From the NCBI GenBank assembly GCA_002104935.1, contig MCGT01000008.1, forward strand, positions 496,001 through 560,000: DNA of 64,000 nt, given 5' to 3'. How positions within the stretch are numbered: the stretch's first letter is position 1; each line of letters begins with the position of its first letter. The notes beneath the pieces are model-generated. The model was given only the letters and a program-made list of their open reading frames with translations, made no database searches and was not told the origin of the DNA. The stretch comes from Hesseltinella vesiculosa. Taxonomy: Eukaryota; Mucoromycota; Mucoromycetes; Mucorales; Cunninghamellaceae. Positions 17,876-47,300 of this stretch are shown here, in pieces. Both the position numbers and the translations under genes were made by a program.

Positions 17876-19233
17876 GCTTTGTACCAAAAAAAAAAAAAAA
17901 AAAAAAGAAAGGTCTGCCAAACAAAAAAGGCCCTTTTGCCAAAAGCCAGCAAGTCCCAATTCAAACTGGATCGCTCATGCATGACTTTTTTTTTTTTTTC
18001 TGTTCCATGATCTTGGCCACAACCGCATAGTAACAGCCAAGAGAAAGACTGTTTGCTGAGCAGGGTATCTATGGTGACTTCGTGCCAAAGAAATTAAGCG
18101 AAGAACGCCTTTTGACTGCTTCCTGACGGTTTCCGCGCAGTGTGATGCATTGCTCGTCACCACATTTTCAGTACGGCATTCAGCTCGTTCTTTGCTATCA
18201 TGTCTGAGAAGGCGGGCGCTCTCAACAATCATCATGTGTGGCCTGAAAGGATGCTTTCGGAATTTGAAATGGGTGGCAGGCAATTTCCATTTTTCGTCAT
18301 CGTTTTTAGCGGGAGATTCGAAGTTCAAAAACTAAAAACGGAACGACTTGGCTGGGCACCCTTTTCCAATCGACTTGATATTTTCAGTGGCTGCGTCTTT
18401 ATGAAGAAACAGCTCGCATGAGAAATCTCACTTGGATCTGCTAGCTCAAAAGTGCTGTGGTCCATTTTCTTTTTTTAAAAAAAGTAAAGGGGTCCCCCAG
18501 TGGATTTGGCCAAAATCCATTGATAGTCTTCAAAAACCTGACCCCCACCAATTGACACCAAATTTGGCACACAACTGGCTCACATTGGTGTAGAATGACA
18601 TGTAAAAGAACAAGCCTCGAATTGTACGAGGTGTCAAACTAGAAGCACCACAAGATTATGGCGACCCAGACATTTTGTCAGGATGACCCGCATATGCCAG
18701 CCGCCAAAATTCGACACTGTCTCACCCAATAGTGCTGTATTTTAGCCTATCCTCACTTGTCATCAGATACAAAGTTTGACGATAATTGAATCCTCTGTCA
18801 TCCGCCCTCGTGATGCAAAAGTTGCAAGCAACCTATGGGCAGTGGTGCGGAGATTAAAGTCATTTTTCATGCTGAGAGCATAACCAGGCCATCTGCTAGC
18901 GCTGAATGAGCATTGGGCTGTAGCTCACAAACGCAAGCTGCAGAGAAAAGGTGCCAAGGGAGAGATCACGTTCAACCCAGCTGCGCCAATCGACAAGAAA
19001 CGGGGCTCTTACAGCAGGGCCCATTCATTCAGAGCCGGCACGTGTGTCAATATCATCTGCACAAGCATTATTTTTTAAAAAATGAATAACGCATTTTTAT
19101 TTGGGACATGTTGGAAGGGGGTGTGGCGGTAAATAACAAGGGGTGGTATGCTATCCTCGGAAGGATACCCTTGTTCCGAATTACGGTCGTCGGATCGGGT
19201 AGTGAAGGCAAGGCTAACGACGCTTAAATAAAG
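17876..19233. other. Long gene-poor spacer with decayed sequence
   Basis: No intact gene recognised. Part of the right half (about 18470-19083) has a balanced base composition unlike surrounding spacers and is bracketed by short palindromic T6-7/A6-7 blocks; it is listed separately as a candidate element relic. The left part (17880-18460) contains long A and T runs and short unconvincing reading frames. Confidence 0.5.
18470..19083. mobile_element. Candidate decayed element bracketed by T/A palindromes
   Basis: Stretch of about 614 bp. A block of seven T then seven A sits at 18470-18483 and six T then six A at 19071-19082. The interior is GC-balanced, has only stop-ridden reading frames and no homopolymers, in contrast to the flanks. 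Short coding-like fragments remain, for example a Lys/Arg-rich stretch at 18930-19000. No transposase motif or clear terminal inverted repeat was recognised, so a non-autonomous or relic element is only one reading. Confidence 0.3.
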
Positions 19234-28882: not shown

Positions 28883-29242
28883 TTTTTTTCCATTTATCCA
28901 TCGCTCTCACCACGAGACGCACTTTATAAAAAAAAATAAAAATGAAAAAAACTCGTTTCAAATCAGATCAATCACACCAAACTGAACACAAGGAACATAA
29001 AGGAGAGCTTGATGAGAGCAAAGACGTATTCCAATCAGGCTTGCAACTGGTTTTTTTTTTTTTTTTTCCTGCCAACCTCTTCCTCTCTCTCTTTTTTTAA
29101 ACTCACCCTTCCACCCAACATCACTCCCCAGCTACAAACGGGACCACCAAAAAAAAAAAGGCGAAGCCTCGGCTATGTGGCCTGGCCTAGGCAAAGCCAT
29201 TGGTCTCGGTCAAAAGAAAATGAAATCAGAAAAGAGCAAAAA
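28883..29242. other. Intergenic region ahead of the tRNA-linked repeat
   Basis: AT-rich with T/A runs. A stretch of six A at 29238-29243 is the poly-T terminator of the minus-strand tRNA. No gene seen. Confidence 0.5.
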
Positions 29243-29244
29243 AT

Positions 29245-29327
29245 GAGGGATAACGGACTTGAACCGCTAACCGCCAGGAGACACCCATTTCTGGAATCTG
29301 GCGCGCTACCAATTGCGCCAACCCCTC
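29245..29327 (-). tRNA. Probable tRNA-Trp (anticodon CCA) with a short intron
   Basis: Folds as a tRNA of 83 nt. The 7-bp acceptor stem is GAGGGGT/ATCCCTC and the D arm is GCGC-AATTGGTA-GCGC. The T arm is AGCGG-TTCAAGT-CCGTT, and the discriminator is A, with six T after it. The D-arm/anticodon context TGGCGCAATTGGTAGCGCG is that of eukaryotic tRNA-Trp, and the loop reads TT-CCA-G followed by an inferred intron of about 11 nt at the canonical 37/38 position. The anticodon stem CCAGA/CCTGG has one A-C mismatch at its base. An alternative stem GCCAG/CTGGC would give anticodon UCC (Gly) but leaves no nucleotide 26. An almost identical copy lies at 36818-36900. Confidence 0.75.
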
Positions 29328-29380
29328 GATATCTTCCGAGGTTCGGCGAGTAAAAAATGTCGAAAATATGCCCGAAAATC

Positions 29381-29632
29381 GCCGGACAATGCCGGACAGT
29401 GCCGGACAATGCCGGACAATTGTCGGGCTAAAAAGCTCCGATGTCGGGCCATACCGGATTTTCAACAACCAAAACAGGACAATTCATTACCGACAGTGCC
29501 GGATCATGTCGGACTATGCCGGACCACGCCGGATTGAGCCATGGCCGACCCGGACCGTGCCGGACAACAGCCGACCGCACGGTATTCACCCGTATGACGC
29601 CGGACTTTCACTGGCATATGTCGGACGGAAGT
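29381..29632 (+). repeat. Degenerate array of GCCGGA/GTCGGA words
   Basis: Within about 250 bp the words 'tgccggaca', 'tgtcggac', 'gccggatc', 'gccggacc' and 'gccgaccg' recur more than a dozen times at irregular short spacing, densest at 29389-29430. The same array, with a few changed copies, is present inverted at 36530-36770. The pattern could be iterated binding sites for a DNA-binding protein or a decayed short tandem repeat. Confidence 0.7.
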
Positions 29633-30344
29633 CTGACCATGCCAAACATAATCATACCCCGCCATTTGGCTTTTCTTTTCAACTGTCTTTTTCACGTTAA
29701 GCGCACACCTCCCTTCCTTCATTCGCCTCTCTTTTTTTTTTTTTTTGAAAGTTTGTTTGCTTAGAAAGTCTTTCATTAAAAAAAGTCCTGCATTCATTCC
29801 AGGCAAGTTTCTGATAACATAATCTATCCATGTGTCTTTGCTACAGGTGCCACATTGGGAAGCATCCAGTGCTAAATTAAGCCTCTTCACCATCTTTTTT
29901 GGCTAGCATTTGCAAGTTGTAGACACCCAGATCAGGAACGTGACCTGCATTGTCAATGTCCTTCCAAGGCAAACAGAGGGATCATCTTCGTGCAATGTGT
30001 ATACCGAGGCTGTTTCTAGGTGGGCCGGCCCATATCAAAATCAGTGCCCATGCCTAAAATCATAATGTGGGTGAGTTGTGTCTGTACACTCTGCTCTTGT
30101 CAAAGAGTATTAACAAAAAAGAGACTCAGGTCGCTGACTTTTTTGTATCGCTGACTGTCATTTTTTTTTTTTTCGTAAAATCAAATTCATTTGGCTTCCC
30201 GCGTCCCATAGCCATTCAAGAGACCAGTAATAATAATTGAAGATGATATTAGAAATATTTTCATTTATTAAAAAAGAGATATCTTGGTGCCACAACAAGA
30301 GCAAATTAGTTTCAGACGAGGGAATATTATCAATAAATGAAAAT

Positions 30345-31522
30345 TTAGTAAAGCGACCCAGTTTTAGTCCAATATGATCTGTGTATCCGTATAAAAATGT
30401 GACCAAAAATGGCGCAATTGTCTACCACCAGCATTCCATGCTGCTGCGGATGCGTCTTAAGCAACGTATGACTGCATAAGAGGGCAGCACAATCAGAGCG
30501 CATGCTCAAGAATGCATCACTGTTTCCCTGGTCGTCAAAGACGATGGCTCTCTTGCCAATGGCCAAAGCAATGTTTTCTTGGGTTGTCACCCATTGCAGA
30601 TTGGCTCTGCTGTTATCAGCCTTGTTCGAGTTCCGGTGATCAACAACGGCTTCCTCAAAAAAGTCATCTGCCTTGAACGCCCAACATACGGCACGGTGTA
30701 CACGAATGTTGTACCAATTCCCTCCATCAGCTTGCATTCTCACCGCCTTGTAGCCAGCAATATTAGTTGATTGGGCAAGTATGTGACCCGTAGAGATGCG
30801 CTTGACATGGCCTAGGTTGGACGTTTCATAGTCGGAGAACCAAAGGGAGTTGCAGTAATTGCCGACTGTTTGCCAGCAGCAGATGACGGCGTTAGGGTCG
30901 TCGAGCAACTGGCTTGGGTTTTCATGATCGACAGCGTCAGAGGCGGGAGGCAAAACATCTTCATCTTCAATGACGTCGTCGTCATCGTCGTCAACGTTGA
31001 CAAGGTCGGAAAATGCAACGCGATTGATGGAAAGGAAGCGTTGGTGGGAAAACCAAACTTGCGTCTCCTGGGGTGTGAGATAACGCAAGTTGGCTACCCG
31101 GTTGTCGGTTTTGATGGCGTTGATATGTTCAACGACCATGCCATCAGGTCTTGGGCCGACAAACGCATGAGGTGCCAAAGTAGTGCAGGTAAGAATGCTG
31201 GTACACCAGGTTGTCAAGATGGAGGTTGAGATGGTTGCCATCAACAAAGCTTAGGATATGGAAGGGCTTGCAGCCTCCGAAGAAGGTATCAACCATGATG
31301 TTAGCGGTCTTGACAGTGACATTGCGTTTTCCGCCGGCGTGGGGGAAGGTGGAGATTTGGACAGAGTCCGTGGGGCGGCCGCCGCGGGAGATGCAATGGA
31401 GGAGCTTGTAGCTTTCCTGGTTGAGGGACTTGGGGTGGTCACCAAGGGTAAAAGGCATTTACCCTGGGGATGGCGGTCATCGATGCAAGAATGACAAAGC
31501 TAAGCACAATCAGGTTCGCCAT
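30345..31522 (-). pseudogene. HNH/NUMOD4 homing-endonuclease-like gene with signal-peptide-like exon, frameshifted
   Basis: The first exon (31522-31463) encodes MANLIVLSFVILASMTAIPR, a signal-peptide-like sequence. A GTAAAT-CAG intron (31462-31417) leads into coding sequence with an HNH-like unit (FVDGNHLNLHLDNLVY). Near 31200 the frame shifts by one base with no rescuing intron. The new frame continues with a complete HNH unit (VVEHINAIKTDNRVANLRYL) and an Asp/Glu-rich linker. Next is a NUMOD4-like segment (WFSDYETSNLGHVKRIS) and another HNH unit (VVDHRNSNKADNSRANLQWV). NUMOD4-HNH_3 proteins are typical of phage, organelle and giant-virus homing nucleases; a nuclear fungal copy with three tandem units is odd. 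The frameshift may be real decay or an assembly error. Confidence 0.7.
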
Positions 31523-31534
31523 GAAGGAGGGTGA

Positions 31535-31745
31535 CGCACGCACTTTTTTTTTTTTTTCTATTTTGGGCAAGCCATGGTGTGAAGATCTTTAATATGCTGA
31601 ATCATACGAGCAGCACCAAAGAAAGTACACAACCACGTGGGTGTCATTGCCATCTCTTTGGGGTGAAGGTGCTGCTGTTTGATCAAGATCTCTCTTTTTG
31701 CCAATTGCCGTAGCAGGAGCCACCTACGCGTTAGGTAAAGAAAAA
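31535..31745 (-). repeat. Conserved upstream block of the HNH gene (repeated at 35893-36113)
   Basis: About 200 bp immediately upstream of the signal-peptide exon, shared in inverse orientation with the right copy. It starts 'ctattttgggcaagccatggtgtgaag' and ends 'ccacctacgcgtta'. Since it precedes the start codon in both copies, it is probably the promoter/5' UTR of the duplicated gene. Indels occur at A-runs in the right copy. Confidence 0.7.
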
Positions 31746-32446
31746 GTAAAAAGAAGGAGCGAGTGGCTTTTTTTTGTTTTTTTTTGTGTTCGCCATTGAG
31801 CGCGCCCATTGGATAAACGAATGTTATTGAAAAACATCCAAAATGTGAGGTGGGGAAGGCATGCGTATGTTTATCCACATCTATTCGTGGCGGCTGGGGG
31901 AAGACGTTGTGACCAAAAATGACAACCCCGCACGTCCGCAACACACCAGTGACGACGCGGTGATAATCATGGAAGATCCCATTTTTTTATCGACTGTCCC
32001 GGCCCAGGAATGTATGAGCTTCCCGTGGTGACATTATTATACAGTATTATACTATTTTCCCCTGTTGAACAAGTAGGTGCAGGTCATGGCTTTTCGCAGT
32101 ATCTAGCAGCAGCGGCTAAAACAAAAGCCACGACAGTGTCGGACCTTTTTTTCTTCTTGGGAAAAAACACAGGGTTTTTGGCTGGAGAGAGCGACGTTAA
32201 ATTTATACAAAATCAAATCCATCAGTGGAAGTCTCCCAGTCAATTTGACACTCGTTCCTTTGTGCTGCCTCCGATCCCTCCGCTAAACAAGCGCCATTTT
32301 TTCCATTTTTCCCGTTTTTCTCAGGGGACCTCTTTCTTGGCTCAAAAAACCAACCTCTCCGAGTTTTCCTTGGTGAAGAGCGTAGGTCTGTCGAGTAGAA
32401 AGTTATCGGAAAAAAAACCTTGCTAGCCAGGCTTCTTTCATTTATT
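31746..32446. other. Intergenic
   Basis: Between the repeat unit and the aminotransferase stop. T-runs at 31769-31787; no gene or RNA recognised. Confidence 0.5.
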
Positions 32447-33976
32447 TTACACAACCACGGACCAGGGGCTTTCGACATCACCGTATTGGATATCCATGAT
32501 AGCATCATTGAATCGCTTGGTATAGGGGCCAGCTTGCGATTCGGGGTTGGAGGGGTCCAAAGGAATGGCCAGTTCTTCGCCGAGGTATTCGATGGCCTTG
32601 ATAGGGCTAACAATACAAGCGGTGCCGGCACCGAACATCTCTTGCACACGGCCAGACTTGACCGCTTCCTTCAATTGAGGCATGGTGAGCTTGCGTTCTG
32701 ACACCTTGAATTCGCCCCATTGCTTAGCGAGCGACAGGATCGAGTCGCGCGTCACACCAGGCAAGATGGAGCCATCCAAAGGAGGGGTCACCAATTCTAA
32801 TTCGTTGCTTTCGTTCTTCCACAACACAAACAAGTTCATGGTTCCCACTTCCGTCAATTGATGTTCGTCTAGGGGAAAAAATGTGAGTCGCTTGTCTCAT
32901 TTTTTTCTGTGGTGCTCTCGTTGGCACTTACCACCAAACAGCCACAAGTTTTGTTGGTAGCCTTCCTTGGCAGCCAGACGTTGAGGCAGCAGACCAGGAG
33001 CATAGTTGCCACCGATCTTAGCATCGCCGGTACCACGGGGCCAAGCTCGCACAAATTCAGTGGTAGCCTTCAATTTGACGGCAGCAAAACCAGTCTTGTA
33101 ATAAGGACCCACAGGGCAACCAATGACAAACAGCTTGGCGTTTGAGGGAGGGTTGACGCCCAAAGCTTCTTGGGTACCGATCATAGTGGGACGCAAATAC
33201 AGGGAATAGCCACGTTCGCTAGGGATCCAGCGCTCATCCAACTTGATATAGTCACCAATTAACTTGATCAGTTCCTTGCCATCAAATTGCTAAAAATGAA
33301 AAAAAAAAAATGAGCTGAGCCTTTCATTTTTTTTTTTTCCTTTCTTACGGGCAAAGCAATACGGGCAGTGGAACGATTCATACGGGCCATGTTCATATCA
33401 GGACGGAACAAGCGGACATTTCCCTTTTTGTCCTTGTAAGCCTTCAAACCTTCAAAGCACTAGGAAAAGAAAATCGAGAAGGGCTTGTCAGTGACCAAAA
33501 AAAAAGGCACCTCCTTACTCCGTTTTTTTTTTTTTTTTTTCCTAACCTCGGAAGCATAATGGAACACCACAGCACTAGGAGCCAACGCCAAACTGCCATA
33601 GGGTTTTATTTCAGGAGCCATCCAGCCTTCTTTTTCATTCCAATCAGCAGAAATCCTATCATACAAAACGAAGACATCAGCGCGAAGCAAAACGAATGAA
33701 ACCACGATTTTTTGGTGACAGCAAACACTTACATGTGGTCGGTGAAGGTATGACCAAAGACCAAGTCTTTGTTAGCCACCAAAGGCTTCAAGATATCCGA
33801 CTTGGTCACCTTGACTTTGGAAGCCTTGACAAGAAAAAAGAAAAAAAAAGTCAGCAAGATGTCACGGTCCATAGTTTTTTTTCGGAGCACAGCTTTACAT
33901 CAAGGCCGGCAATGGAGGAATTGTATCTTTTAGCAGATGCAATGAAGGAACGGCGCAACAAACGAGAAGAAAACAT
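32447..33976 (-). CDS. Branched-chain amino acid aminotransferase, mitochondrial type
   Basis: PLP enzyme interconverting Leu/Ile/Val and their 2-oxoacids. Exons (minus) 33976-33899, 33824-33733, 33655-33547, 33459-33349, 33289-32932 and 32868-32447 give 389 residues. The N-terminus [20 protein letters not shown] is an Arg/Ser-rich mitochondrial presequence. Class IV aminotransferase features include [32 protein letters not shown] and [36 protein letters not shown] holds the Schiff-base Lys, and [12 protein letters not shown] and [13 protein letters not shown] follow. Length and motifs match fungal BAT1-like enzymes. The gene lies between the two inverted repeat copies, in tandem with RAD52. 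Confidence 0.95.
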
Positions 33977-34342
33977 TAAAGAGATGGGTGGAAGAAAATG
34001 AAAAGAAAAAAAAGAAAGAGAAAAACGAGCGGGGAGGATTGACAACCACTTTTTGTTTGCGGAGATGCGACGGAGTGAGTCACCACAAAAAGGGATGCAA
34101 AATGACATTGGGCCAATCGAATTTCCCACGGTATTGTTCTCGGTTCTTTTTCACCAAATTGTTGATCAGGATTTTATTTCAACCTTCAGGCAGTGATTTC
34201 CTTTTGTCATTCATTTTTTCGCTGGCGTTTCCATGACGGTGGGGCCGGAGGTGTGGGGGATAGAGGAATCCTAATGGAACGTGGCAAATGAGTTTAATTT
34301 TTTTGGTCACACGTACTTGTTTGACGTGCCATTGGGGTGACC
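33977..34342. other. Intergenic between RAD52 stop and aminotransferase start
   Basis: Purine-rich on the plus strand near 33980-34030 (CT-rich leader of the aminotransferase on its own strand). No gene seen. Confidence 0.5.
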
Positions 34343-35399
34343 TTACTCGTTATTTTCCTTGACCATGTCTTCGGCCATCTTGGTATAGAGTGAGTCTTCG
34401 ATTTGGTCGTAGATATCATCATCTTCGTCTTCATCTTTACGCGTTTCATAAATAAAAAAAAACGTCAGCGCCAGCGAACCCTGCTGTAGTTCTTTACCAA
34501 TGACGAAACTGCTCTGGGCATGTAATTCTTCATGGCGTTTCAGCGGAGGAGGGGCAGGAGGGTGGGTCTTCTTGTGTGAGGGAGGCTCTGCCTTGACTTT
34601 GGCCGATGGCTCGGTGGGTAGTTTTGTTTGTTGTCGTTTCACAGGTGATGCTGTTGACGCCGAAGTGGATTGTGCACGTGCCGTTTCCCGTTCATTGATC
34701 CCTTTTTGAATGGCTGGATGGCGATACAGATCCTTGGGTGAGAATGGGATCTGTGAAAAAAAAAAAAAAAAATCAGCCCCCTTTTTCCATTTTGCTCAGC
34801 TCTTTCTCTTCTTTCTTGCCGCTGGTTTCGCCATATTTCCGATGTTTCGCAAATAGTTCTTGTCATAGATGCAGTTGCCCATCACGTCGCCAAATAGGCG
34901 CAGAGCCCGCTTAAGGCCATCAGTGACCGATTCCTTGCGTGCTTTTTCAAAAGCATCCGCCTTTGTTTTGGCATTCTCGAATGATCCATAGCCCCAGTCT
35001 TCATGGTATGTACCGCACTTCAACGTAACGCGTACCCTTGCTGCAATCCCCAAACTCACACGGCCTCTATCATCCACATCAATCTAAAAGAAGTCAGCCG
35101 GGCGAGTTTCTTTTATTCTTCCCACCTACAAAGTCTGTGACAGTTTCCAATACTTCTGAACTCCATCCATCATAGCCAAATACTTCATTGGCCAAGTTGA
35201 TCGCTGTCCTTCCTTCAATGTAGAAGAGTTTGGCATTGCCAGCTAGTCATCAGATAGTTAGCTACCTTGATGTTGGATCTTCTTACTTACGCCCCACTCG
35301 ATTCGCAATAAATTCGGGTCCTAGGCTCTTTTGCAATATTTCCTCTTTTGCGTATGCTATGCCATCTCGATCATGCTTGATGGAGCGTTGATCAGTCAT
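34343..35399 (-). CDS. RAD52: RAD52 homologous-recombination mediator
   Basis: Ring-forming single-strand annealing protein that loads Rad51. Exons (minus) 35399-35291, 35242-35130, 35083-34820, 34750-34498 and 34434-34343 give 276 residues. The conserved N-terminal domain has KSLGPEFIANRVGPGNAKLFYIEG, ANEVFGYDGWSSEV, RVTLKCGTYHEDWGYG, KARKESVTDGLKRALRLFGD and NCIYDKNYL. The C-terminal part is short, Pro/Lys-rich and ends in an acidic helix, so the protein is much shorter than yeast or human Rad52. Intron 3 appears to use a GC donor (GCG^GCAAGA, 34819) with a normal AG. No GT donor exists near that position, and this junction alone keeps the frame into PFSPKDLYR, the family's DLYR block. Confidence 0.92.
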
Positions 35400-35892
35400 G
35401 CTTAATCAACGACCAAAAGCAAAAAGTAGGAAAAAAAATAATAAATAGAAAACAACGTCGTCCCTAAAAACTTAAAAAAAAAAAAAGCCGCAGTGGCACG
35501 CAATTTGAACCTGTCTTTGAATTCACCAGGGCTGCGCGCTACCGTTCCTTTGCTCCATAGCACCAATGGGAGCCGAAGCTGCAAGCTGACATGTGTTTCC
35601 TGCCAACGCATGCGTACTTCGCGCCGCAACTCCTGCGGATCCTTCTTCTCCTCCTATTGCATGACTTTGCAAGCAAGAGAACCGCCAGGTGTCCATCCTT
35701 CCTAGCCTCATTTTTTCCCAAAGTGCTTGTACCAAGCCAGTCTTAACCCAGCCCTTCCTAACCAGTGCACAACTGTTCGTTACTGCGGACCCTCGGCGCC
35801 TTCAATTAAAGCCATTGTCAACTTTTGACCGTGTTTATTCATTGTTCAAAGGTTGGGAAAAAAAAAATGCACATCCTCTTATTTTTGCTATT
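35400..35892. other. Intergenic
   Basis: Between RAD52 and the right repeat copy. A minus-strand stretch at about 35570-35486 has tRNA-promoter-like words followed by a 12-T run but does not fold as a tRNA. Nothing else recognised. Confidence 0.45.
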
Positions 35893-36139
35893 TTTTACTT
35901 AACGCGTAGGTGGCTCCCCCTATGGCAATTGGCAAAAAGAGAGACCATGATCAAACAGCAGCACCTTCACCCCAAGAGATGGAAATGACACCCACATGGT
36001 TGTGTACTGTCTTTGTTGTTGCCCCTAAACAAAAAAAAAAAAAAAAAAAGAAAAAAAACCTCGTATGGTTCAGCAAATTAAAGATCCTCACACCATGGCT
36101 TGCCCAAAATAGAAAAAAAAAAGTGGGTCACCTTGCTTC

Positions 36140-36190
36140 ATGGCAAGCCTGGAGTCCTTGCTGATGGTGCTTAGCATTGTCATGCATTGA
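36140..36190 (+). pseudogene. Remnant of signal-peptide exon in the short copy
   Basis: Corresponds to the first exon of the HNH gene at 31522-31463. It opens with MASLESLLMVLS and terminates at an in-frame TGA after 16 residues. The downstream HNH exons are deleted, so this copy cannot encode the protein. Confidence 0.6.
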
Positions 36191-36529
36191 TGGCCGCCAT
36201 CCCCAGTGCAAATGCCTTCTACATCTCCGTCTTTCAAATGCTAGCCAAAAAAGATGGTGAAGAGGCTTGATTTAGCACTGGATGCTTCCCAATGTGGCAC
36301 CTGTAGCAAAGACACATGGATAGACTATGTTATCAGAAACTTGCCTGGAATGAATGCAGGACTTTTTTTAATGAAAGACTTTCTAAAGCAAACAAACTTT
36401 CAAAAAAAAAAAAAGAGAGGTGAATGAAGGAAGGGAGGTGTGCGCTTAACGTGAAAAAGACAGTTGAAAAGAAAAGCCAAATGGCGGGGTATGATTATGT
36501 TTGGCATGGTCAGACTTCCGTCCGACATA

Positions 36530-36770
36530 TGCCAGTGAAAGTCCGGCGTCATACGGGTGAATACCGTGCGGTCGGCTGTTGTCCGGCACGGTCCGGGTCG
36601 GCCATGGCTCAATCCGGCGTGGTCCGGCATAGTCCGACATGATCCGGCACTGTCGGTAATGAATTGTCCTGTTTTGGTTGTTGAAAATCCGGTACGGCCG
36701 ACATCGGAGCTTTTTAGCCCGACAATTGTCCGGCACTGTCCGACATTGTCCGACACTGTCCGGCGATTTT
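36530..36770 (-). repeat. Degenerate GCCGGA-word array, right copy
   Basis: Inverted counterpart of the array at 29381-29632, with the same irregular succession of gccgga/gtcgga words and some diverged units. Confidence 0.7.
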
Positions 36771-36817
36771 CGGGCATATTTTCGACATTTTTTACTCGCC
36801 GAACCTCGGAAGATATC

Positions 36818-36900
36818 GAGGGGTTGGCGCAATTGGTAGCGCGCCAGATTCCAGAAATGGGTGTCTCCTGGCGGTTAGCGGTTCAAGTCCGTTATCCCTC
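36818..36900 (+). tRNA. Probable tRNA-Trp (anticodon CCA) with a short intron, second copy
   Basis: Same sequence and fold as the minus-strand copy at 29245-29327. Acceptor stem, D arm and T arm are intact, CCA lies at 36851-36853 and the inferred ~11-nt intron at about 36855-36865. The discriminator is A at 36901 and a run of seven T follows at 36904. Both copies keep intact stems and terminators, so both look functional. The assignment to Trp rests on the loop position and on similarity of the D-arm region to eukaryotic tRNA-Trp; Gly(UCC) is the alternative. Confidence 0.75.
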
Positions 36901-36901
36901 A

Positions 36902-37581
36902 TCTTTTTTTACTTTTCTCATCTACGAGATGAGCTGAATTTGCGACACAGGGTCGGGAAAGCGTGTTCGTGTGGTTCTTTTTGTAAACCGTTGGTGTCCA
37001 TCAACTAAGTTTTAATCATGACTCATTGGCTTGAAGACTTTTCTTTTTTTTTTTGGTTGGGAGATTGGGGTTGTCAAAAGCAGCGATCTACAACGATGGA
37101 CTTGATTTTTCAGCATCATCGGTATTTATGAACCTCCGGAAATGAACACAAGGCCATTAGGCAGCTGGCTGTGTTGGAGCGGACCGACACCATGTTTCTG
37201 TTCCGGACACACAAGGCTGGTCTTGCCTACAGGAAAGCTGGGCTGAAAGTTTCAATGGACCCTCACGCTTTGTGCAATGCCATTCATGTCAGGCTCTCCA
37301 TTTTTATTTCGCTCAAAACTTGAACCAATCACGCTCCGCTTTTTTTGTCCTTTTGAAGAAAAGGCTCCTTTTGAAAATCATGCTTGAAAAAAAGGAACCC
37401 TATTCATATTGGAGACAGAGCAATAGGAGGAAAAAAGGGGGATACACCTTTCATTTATTGAATTTGTATAGACACAAAGGAGAAAACAAACGAGAAGTGA
37501 GGGGAATATACGACGTTCGCATGGTAAAGGAAACAAAGGAAAAAAAAATGCAATGTCATTGTTTGTTGGTGCAGAACTTGT
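36902..37581. other. Intergenic
   Basis: No gene, RNA or repeat recognised between the right tRNA and the small cysteine-rich peptide gene. Confidence 0.5.
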
Positions 37582-46021: not shown

Positions 46022-47300
46022 GCTAAATAAACCTCGACCCATGTATTTTTTTCCAAATCAACACGGTGCAATATTTCTTACTGATCAAAGCCTTTTTTTA
46101 AAAGGAGCCATGGGCACCAGCCATTTGGTCAACCACTGACCTCATTTCTGAGAAATTGCCCACGTTTCTATCCCGATCTTTGGGCTCCTGCACGCCAAGT
46201 TCACCCAGTCATGAGATTATTTGACACTGGATGCCTCGATCGTCTGCGGTCTCTGTATTTTTTTTTATTTCCTAAGCATGCCCATGCATAATGTGCTTCG
46301 GGTCTTTTTTTTTTTTGTGCCCTGGAACCAGGTAGAACTGAGCCAATCGTTTCAAACGATTCGTCGTTTTTCCAATCCCGACATATTGCGCAACTAGTCC
46401 ACACCGTCGTTTTCCAAAGGTATGGTTCAGATGAACCAAGCATGTGTCTGTCAAACCAAGGGCATGTGATTTTAGCCTCTTAACTCCAGTGTCTGATGGG
46501 ATTGTGCTGGTATGCAAAATTTGGGGGGGGGGAGGTTTATTTAGAGTAATTTTGAACTGTGATTTTTGATCAGGTCGCCCAGGGGGTTCCCTGGGGAAAA
46601 TGGTCGATTTTTTCTTTTTTTTAAGCTGGAGAATCGGAGTTGTCAATGCGAAAGTGATCAAAAGTTGGCTGAGCAACCTTCACCAATCGACATGATTTTG
46701 TTAGTATCATCATCATTCATGCATTTGCGTGCCCATATAAAATGTCACGCCAATCCAATCACTCAAGGATGCTGTGTAGCATCTGCTTTTTTTTTTTTTT
46801 TTCGAAATAAAAAAATTTGGATGGTCGAATTCAATCACCGCACAGCTTCTTCCTGACGGACACATGCGCGGTTACTGGTATTAAGCGAATAGAGTACAAG
46901 TCTCGATATTAAAAAGCGAATGCAACAATCCAAAGGACAACCTTCTCCAAAACATTCCGAAGGTCCAGATTCCCAATTTGATGAAGAGGTGCCAATGTAG
47001 TCACTTCATGACGACTGATTTTTTCTTTCCCTGATCGTTATCGCCTTCAGTCATCCTACGATCATTGCATGACTGAGCAGATGTGATGTCTGGAAAAATC
47101 TCGCTTTTCGCTACCGTCATCTCTTTCCGGACCACCTGTGGTTATCAATGCTACTTTATTTTTTTCCCCGTTTGATCAAGCCGGTGGTGCCAGCCGTCGG
47201 CTGGTTTCAAATCCCGTCGGCGCTGATCAAACACAGTGGGGGGGAAAAAGCCCCCGCAGGTTTTTTCTGGTTTTTTTTTTTATTATCTGCTTACTCGTGC
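46022..47300. other. Intergenic
   Basis: No gene supported. T-runs at 46305-46317 and 46788-46803, and a G10 run at 46523. Confidence 0.5.

Follow-up and report, generated by a model that had tools for sequence, protein, structure and literature searches.

Putative Tnp2-type transposon remnants lie with one polarity upstream of tRNA genes in the Mucorales fungus Hesseltinella vesiculosa

The 64,000-nucleotide stretch of Hesseltinella vesiculosa DNA considered here (the window; C78:496001-560000 in an assembly of 27.05 Mb and 85 contigs, which are given C numbers; the species belongs to the Cunninghamellaceae) carries an inverted pair of units, a long one (29238-31775) and a short one (35852-36907), each of which terminates at an identical tRNA-Trp gene. 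A distal block common to both units, called T hereafter, recurs elsewhere in the genome, in most cases followed by a same-strand tRNA gene. The recurring couple is a Tnp2-type transposon and the 5' flank of a tRNA gene. It is likely that Tnp2 DNA transposons favor the 5' flanks of tRNA genes and take one polarity there, and that the tRNA-Trp locus was then duplicated, one of its copies gaining a piece of an HNH gene.

The nature of T is indicated by contig C39, where T-like pieces of the minus strand are lined up in order inside a larger gene (11093-10927, 9938-9831 and 7473-7359; an extra piece at 10090-10030 is weak, E 0.001). The stretch between these pieces encodes a PF02992 domain (Transposase_21, tnp2; 4.1e-16), and this core has 223 protein matches at E <= 0.001, with Mucor saturninus, Circinella minor and Rhizopus delemar among the species named in the 120 listed. 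Of 16 T-bearing sequences, 11 are matched in tblastn by peptides from exon 1 and the C-terminus of the C39 gene (E 7e-10 to 7e-4, with 50-75% identity across 21-38 aa), namely the short unit of the window and ten of the fetched loci, which carry L numbers (L011-L014, L017-L020, L026 and L043); reversed decoys gave no match. T consists of exon 1, exon 2 and the C-terminus joined without the PF02992 core, it is collinear with C39, and the same arrangement is found in many copies. The gene order on C39 and the peptide matches thus identify T as an internally deleted transposase gene whose catalytic core is missing. Judged by homology, T descends from a Tnp2-type (Transposase_21, CACTA/EnSpm-like) transposase gene.

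The copies of T differ at ~26-35% of aligned sites, and their trees (10 of the 14 T rows being used per tree) are near star-like, with end branches of ~0.2 per site. Change by codon position is 0.26/0.30/0.27 in exon 1 and 0.32/0.29/0.35 in exon 2. A near star-like tree with little codon pattern fits an old burst of dead, decaying copies. Other identities for T were rejected. A living small gene is at odds with the absence of a clear third-position excess, and the frame in L013 has no protein relative, its genome matches being T copies only. For a non-coding RNA, the window and loci scanned gave only tRNA genes above the Rfam gathering score, and relaxing the limit to E <= 0.5 at eight loci brought three more, sub-threshold matches, all outside T. 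As to a link with reverse transcriptase, only two of 111 RVT_1 matches lie within 10 kb of the T loci, each ~5 kb away (C39:1434-1925, and C33:241766-242241 near a long terminal repeat (LTR) at C33:238770-239067).

The census of T combines three DNA searches, one with the long unit as query and two with T copies, and counts 17 loci, the three separate places on C39 being taken as one. Besides matches to the HNH gene, the long-unit search returned ten further T places, in pieces of 70-82%, and ARAGORN recognized a same-strand downstream tRNA gene at nine of these ten fetched loci (Gly, Ala, Met, Glu, Gly, Asp, Asp with Arg beyond, Gly and Asp). The T-copy searches added C67:362, C6:75, C67:471, C33:37 and C39. 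The T blocks at C6:75, C67:471 and C33:37 lie upstream of tRNA-Cys, tRNA-Asn and tRNA-Lys, respectively. No tRNA gene near C67:362 was in the prior list; the downstream stretch was then fetched and held tRNA-Glu(TTC) on the same strand, as predicted. In total, a same-strand tRNA gene follows T at 15 of the 17 loci (13 of 15 without the window pair), and ten anticodons are represented. The distance from T to the tRNA gene is about 0.3-1.65 kb (404-1630 bp from match coordinates; 658 bp at C6 and 601 bp at C67:471 from profile coordinates). The chance of 15 in 17 is 1.3e-24 if 500 tRNA genes are assumed, a figure that ignores some dependence among the T loci: the two Trp units are duplicates of one locus, as are the members of a tRNA-Gly pair on C67. 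For comparison, 129-274 tRNA genes were predicted in six related genomes (PMC7928374). Two loci stand outside the count: L032 (tRNA-Thr), which has T and was found by starting from tRNA loci, and L041 (E 8e-6), excluded as marginal; reversed decoys gave two matches at E 0.002-0.009. The initial annotation had proposed a mobile-element component, and the recurrence of T and its transposase origin bear this out.

Fuller elements of the same type are also present. PF02992 is found at seven places in the genome, which include the genes on C39 and C42 (4e-16). Beyond C39, C42 and C5, fuller copies were located at C12:1470258, C85:534330, C46:131558, C65:786 and C34:1239699. The elements on C42 and C5 are 99.94% identical over the 3155 bp present in both; both loci were originally retrieved because they hold tRNA genes. 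Their polarity is that of the T copies: the C42 element ends 56 bp ahead of tRNA-Arg(TCG) and the C5 element 354 bp ahead of tRNA-Lys(CTT), the latter gap consisting of a 302-bp LTR and an inverted LTR piece of 49 bp. When the 3' 0.5 kb of the element served as query, the genome search returned C42, C5, C12:1469748-1470258 (93%) and a fragment on C18 (76%). The 3' end common to the C42 and C5 copies, the one end read, is ...CCCGCTGTGG and contains no CACTA motif; on C5 it was possibly cut by the LTR insertion. A search of the C42 element for an additional gene turned up nothing but short open frames, on both strands, between the transposase and the tRNA gene; those of the minus strand had no Pfam match.

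Several observations weigh against a preference of these elements for tRNA 5' flanks. At the C33:236 T locus there is no tRNA gene within 4.1 kb downstream, and none was recognized in C39:5800-12000, which reaches just 1.5 kb past the end of the matched gene; the check advised in the initial annotation, whether the tRNA gene always marks one end, comes out positive at 15 loci and, over the stretches read, negative at these two. Most tRNA genes have no T: among 20 loci chosen for their tRNA genes alone, out of the top-scoring part of the list and whatever their T content, a clear T block was present at only two (Lys and Thr), in both cases upstream and on the same strand. Five of the 16 T-bearing sequences (L015, L016, L032, L047 and L048) gave no protein-level match in tblastn. 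The decayed C42-type fragment on C18 sits ~0.5 kb downstream of a tRNA-Ile gene. Flanks were compared at three of the seven PF02992 places, those on C42, C5 and C39. The distance between T and the tRNA gene is variable, and two kinds of repeat block, R and Y, intervene, so that primary insertion points are not fixed by it. Target site duplications in CACTA/EnSpm elements are short, 2-3 bp. In the Hesseltinella elements, neither the ends nor duplicated target sites were found.

The polar association of T with tRNA genes is observed directly; the process behind it is a matter of interpretation. That the Tnp2-type insertion machinery itself prefers tRNA 5' flanks and fixes polarity, in the way the integrases of Ty1 and Ty3 and the TRE proteins choose Pol III genes, seems slightly more probable than not, and such targeting might act, for example, through contact with factors of RNA polymerase III (Pol III) or with their chromatin. 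The main rival is survival, in which insertion would have been wide and only the copies in tRNA 5' flanks were kept in a compact genome, their direction reflecting selection against the opposite arrangement. The small genome (27 Mb) and the age of the T copies, given the divergence above, suit this explanation. However, the nearly identical C42 and C5 copies, on which selection has had little time to act, are also located upstream of tRNA genes and in that same direction, and for 15 of the 17 T loci to share one side and strand, nearly all others would have to have been purged. Survival is considered unlikely.

The initial annotation described inverted long and short units with common ends and a differing interior, each ending at a tRNA gene, and closer comparison agrees. 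The inverted arms of 298, 210, 191, 94 and 63 nt have 88-99% identity (29238-29923 pairs with 36224-36907, and 31548-31610 plus 31658-31751 with 36060-36122 plus 35882-35975), and on both sides the match stops ~6 nt beyond the tRNA 3' end, inside a run of thymines. The tRNA-Trp(CCA) genes occupy 29244..29327 on the minus strand in the long unit (ARAGORN; Rfam RF00005, 49.8 bits) and 36818..36901 on the plus strand in the short unit (ARAGORN; Rfam), and a genome DNA search with the tRNA-Trp 84-mer found two places only, 29244 and 36818. In the long unit T is split on the minus strand into a 3' part (29766..29919; profile match 1.1e-34), a remnant of the transposase C-terminal end whose counterpart in other T copies matches the C39 C-terminus, and a 5' part (31449..31774; 1.5e-70), the remnant of exons 1 and 2. 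The T block of the short unit is continuous (35852..36381, plus strand; 2e-128), and 35913-36005 is still readable as transposase exon 1 (tblastn with the C39 exon-1 peptide, 55% over 31 aa, 3e-6; no decoy match). Between remnant and tRNA gene lies a CCGG-rich (TCCGGCA-like) block, at 29328..29680 on the minus strand in the long unit and 36480..36800 on the plus strand in the short unit, with 15 (+8 reverse) and 11 (+6 reverse) scored motifs, respectively, within 700 bp upstream of the tRNA gene.

Searching the genome for further copies, as the initial annotation advised, gave a divided answer: no third copy of the whole unit was found, whereas the T block recurs. A segmental duplication of gene plus tRNA, which that annotation had kept as an alternative, accounts for the Trp pair. 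Between the units, identity is 98% in the tRNA-proximal 0.69 kb (669/684 aligned bases) and 90% in the distal block (283/316 aligned bases, 71 gap positions), and the step between the two values is located at the edge of the HNH segment of the long unit. Such a step is compatible with gene conversion that acted close to the tRNA genes and was stopped at the insert; gene conversion may have kept the tRNA-proximal 0.7 kb alike. In the proposed order of events, an internally deleted, non-autonomous Tnp2-type derivative would have inserted upstream of the ancestral tRNA-Trp gene in the direction of the gene, as its sister copies did elsewhere. The remnant, the CCGG-rich block and the tRNA gene would then have been duplicated and inverted ~7 kb away. 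Gene conversion may have homogenized the tRNA-proximal part, and later one of the copies would have received a piece of an HNH/NUMOD4 gene in its T block.

Two side observations concern the surroundings of the pair. Weak tblastn similarity (E 2e-4 to 4e-4) to frames 5' of the C39 transposase gene is found at 31928-32032, so similarity of the long-unit element to the C39 5' region may extend upstream of the T block, to 32032; L019 (2736-3012) and L021 likewise have weak matches of C39 frames outside the transposase gene. Between the units, 32447-33184 contains an aminotransferase class IV match (PF01063, 2e-11 on 32450-32839), which might be read as a branched-chain aminotransferase.

The long unit exceeds the short one by a segment of 1.53 kb (29920..31447, minus strand) with a truncated HNH/NUMOD4 gene. 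An HNH-nuclease-like protein had been predicted from the start, and its open frame of 298 aa (30345..31241, minus strand) indeed has an HNH_3 match of 5e-20 in two stretches and a NUMOD4-like match slightly below the Pfam cut-off; a public H. vesiculosa protein named His-Me finger endonuclease matches it at 100% over 81% of the query. By DNA match, the segment is collinear with C34:1228681-1231672 in two blocks of 90-91% and one of 79%. Compared with the C34 copy, ~1.1 kb is missing from the window copy at 31171, and the window copy begins within the first part of the C34 gene. A 119-bp stretch of the window segment (30281..30399, minus strand) is missing in the C34 copy and has relatives at C78:286685 and C17:335433 (81-83%). 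The C34 gene (in L009, C34:1226000-1235500) is longer, with two clear and two weak HNH_3 stretches across several frames, which are probably exons, and it faces a reversed, distant paralogue (33%; C34:1225625-1226434) a few kb off. A third HNH relative is located on C49. Between the window and C34 copies, nonsynonymous and synonymous divergence are dN 0.055 and dS 0.32 over 256 codons; this dN/dS of 0.175 indicates that protein function was retained during much of the time since the copies split, and it is no proof of present-day function for the window copy.

The segment is an insertion, because the short unit keeps T at the site, reading through the insertion point with sequence alignable to other T copies, and because no match to the segment was found at the 15 other T loci or in the C39 pieces compared. 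It is a truncated duplicate of a gene from another contig, inserted into one T copy; of the T copies read, the long unit alone carries HNH. The initial annotation had taken the units as an autonomous element and its deleted partner, but the T block of the short unit is uninterrupted, and it is the long unit that gained sequence. The proposed coupling of a homing-type nuclease to a tRNA end likewise does not extend to the HNH relatives, since no T block and no recognized tRNA gene were found in the 9.5 kb read on C34 or the 7.0 kb read on C49. On this comparison, the coupling looks accidental. A homing endonuclease gene or HNH-carrying element was rejected as an identity for the segment, with the C34 and C49 copies outside T-like flanks and a single HNH-bearing T copy. 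A Pack-type capture, in which the long unit would be a non-autonomous CACTA-like element that picked up the HNH fragment and could carry it, is doubtful. A gene fragment does lie inside a deleted transposon here, and its joints show no clear duplication, with some 10-18 bp of T lost as judged by eye, but one such copy was found and there is no sign of movement after capture. Moreover, the HNH gene has diverged further from C34 than the two units have from each other, and its immediate source was not necessarily C34.

Another reading takes T for an old spacer or regulatory part of tRNA loci, spread together with tRNA genes by segmental duplication. Loci with the same anticodon do share longer homology, as in the Trp units near the gene and in the C67 Gly pair (88%). 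However, T is found at ten anticodons and is ~65-80% alike between most of them, its distance differs even among Gly genes (404 bp at C1:1240 vs ~1460 bp at the C67 pair), and it derives from a transposase gene, which together make this reading improbable. Finally, an HNH-carrying mobile element ending at a tRNA gene, with a deleted partner, is hardly credible: the HNH gene is within the long unit only, and nuclease genes do travel on mobile DNA, as in KolobokP (PMC9587614), but the short unit and the other T loci are free of the segment, its C34 and C49 relatives lie apart from T and tRNA genes, and the segment itself is truncated.

Further sequences accompany tRNA genes in this genome. The R repeat is common genome-wide and not limited to tRNA loci, with copies in the window at 18292-18491 and 46533-46851 and at more than 40 places in the genome, often as back-to-back inverted pairs and with a slight third-position excess in one frame. 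Several tRNA genes have a same-strand copy of R upstream. Since R forms back-to-back pairs, it is trivial that the nearest copy faces a tRNA gene, and with R also common elsewhere no conclusion was drawn on R as a tRNA-directed element. The Y block is common to Asp, Glu, Ile and Lys loci and C33:236. Against 6.2 kb of the C39 locus, R and Y gave weak matches only (E 0.02 or worse). The CCGG-rich tract, which may represent subterminal repeats of the element, is richest at those Trp, Gly and Asp genes that have T; other T-bearing genes lack it, and one T-less gene (L023) has it. Around 33 tRNA genes in L011-L042, CCGG occurs 56 times in the 600 bp upstream vs 26 downstream, with T-bearing genes supplying much of the excess.

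A Ty3-type LTR retrotransposon with gag, protease, reverse transcriptase, RNase H and integrase matches lies in L038 (C29:108880 to about 115204); its LTRs of 302 bp are 99.7% alike over 297 bp. A gap of 2-3 bp separates this LTR from tRNA-Ile, -Phe, -Lys and -Thr genes (L038, L035, L033 and L029); the element is seemingly a tRNA-targeting retroelement in a Mucorales fungus. The LTR at C33:238770-239067 (L013 4771-5001 with L046 1-67) is near a tRNA-less T copy, and no tRNA gene was recognized adjacent to it.

The Hesseltinella elements resemble CACTA/EnSpm transposons in the PF02992 domain of the C39 and C42 genes and five further places and in having internally deleted derivatives; the single end read, possibly cut on C5, shows no terminal CACTA motif, and no short target duplication was found. 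EnSpm elements have been reported in sequenced Mucorales (PMC7928374). A literature search, with subscription journals mostly outside its coverage, returned no tRNA 5' flank preference for CACTA/EnSpm and no case from Mucorales or Mucoromycota. In a review of elements beside tRNA genes, those described are retrotransposons, namely Ty1, Ty3, Tj1, Tyl6 and Tca8 in ascomycetes and DGLT-A, TRE5 and TRE3 in dictyostelids, and its Table 1 lists no Mucoromycota host (PMC5911963). Ty1 inserts in a ~1-kb window upstream of Pol III genes (PMC5911963), and TRE5 and TRE3 insert with fixed orientation (PMC5911963; PMC5006619). The Hesseltinella elements share with Ty1 and TRE retrotransposons the position beside Pol III genes but encode a Tnp2 DNA transposase. 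Among DNA transposons, Dada elements are tied to tRNA and snRNA genes, and their insertions fall within the RNA gene itself, at a fixed position and with a 6-7 bp duplication (PMC3706591), whereas the tRNA genes here are recognized as whole, with elements upstream. For Mu and P near rRNA and tRNA genes, insertion was reported to be no more frequent than at random loci (PMC7337890). KolobokP is a eukaryotic DNA transposon with an I-PpoI-like His-Me finger nuclease and long terminal direct repeats (PMC9587614); in contrast, the HNH_3/NUMOD4 gene described here is outside the element family. Whether Tnp2/CACTA-like cut-and-paste transposons of this early-diverging fungus have steered to Pol III gene 5' flanks with fixed polarity over a long time, alongside a tRNA-abutting Ty3-type element, is an evenly balanced call, the long duration being suggested by old T remnants together with nearly identical C42 and C5 copies. 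How Pol III flanks are targeted is understood for retrotransposon integrases and for TRE proteins. If the proposal is true, it would offer a source of new transposase-host contacts, and a DNA transposase that prefers the same niche with a single polarity would represent another independent route to "safe" insertion, the DNA-transposon counterpart of the Ty1/TRE5 strategy.

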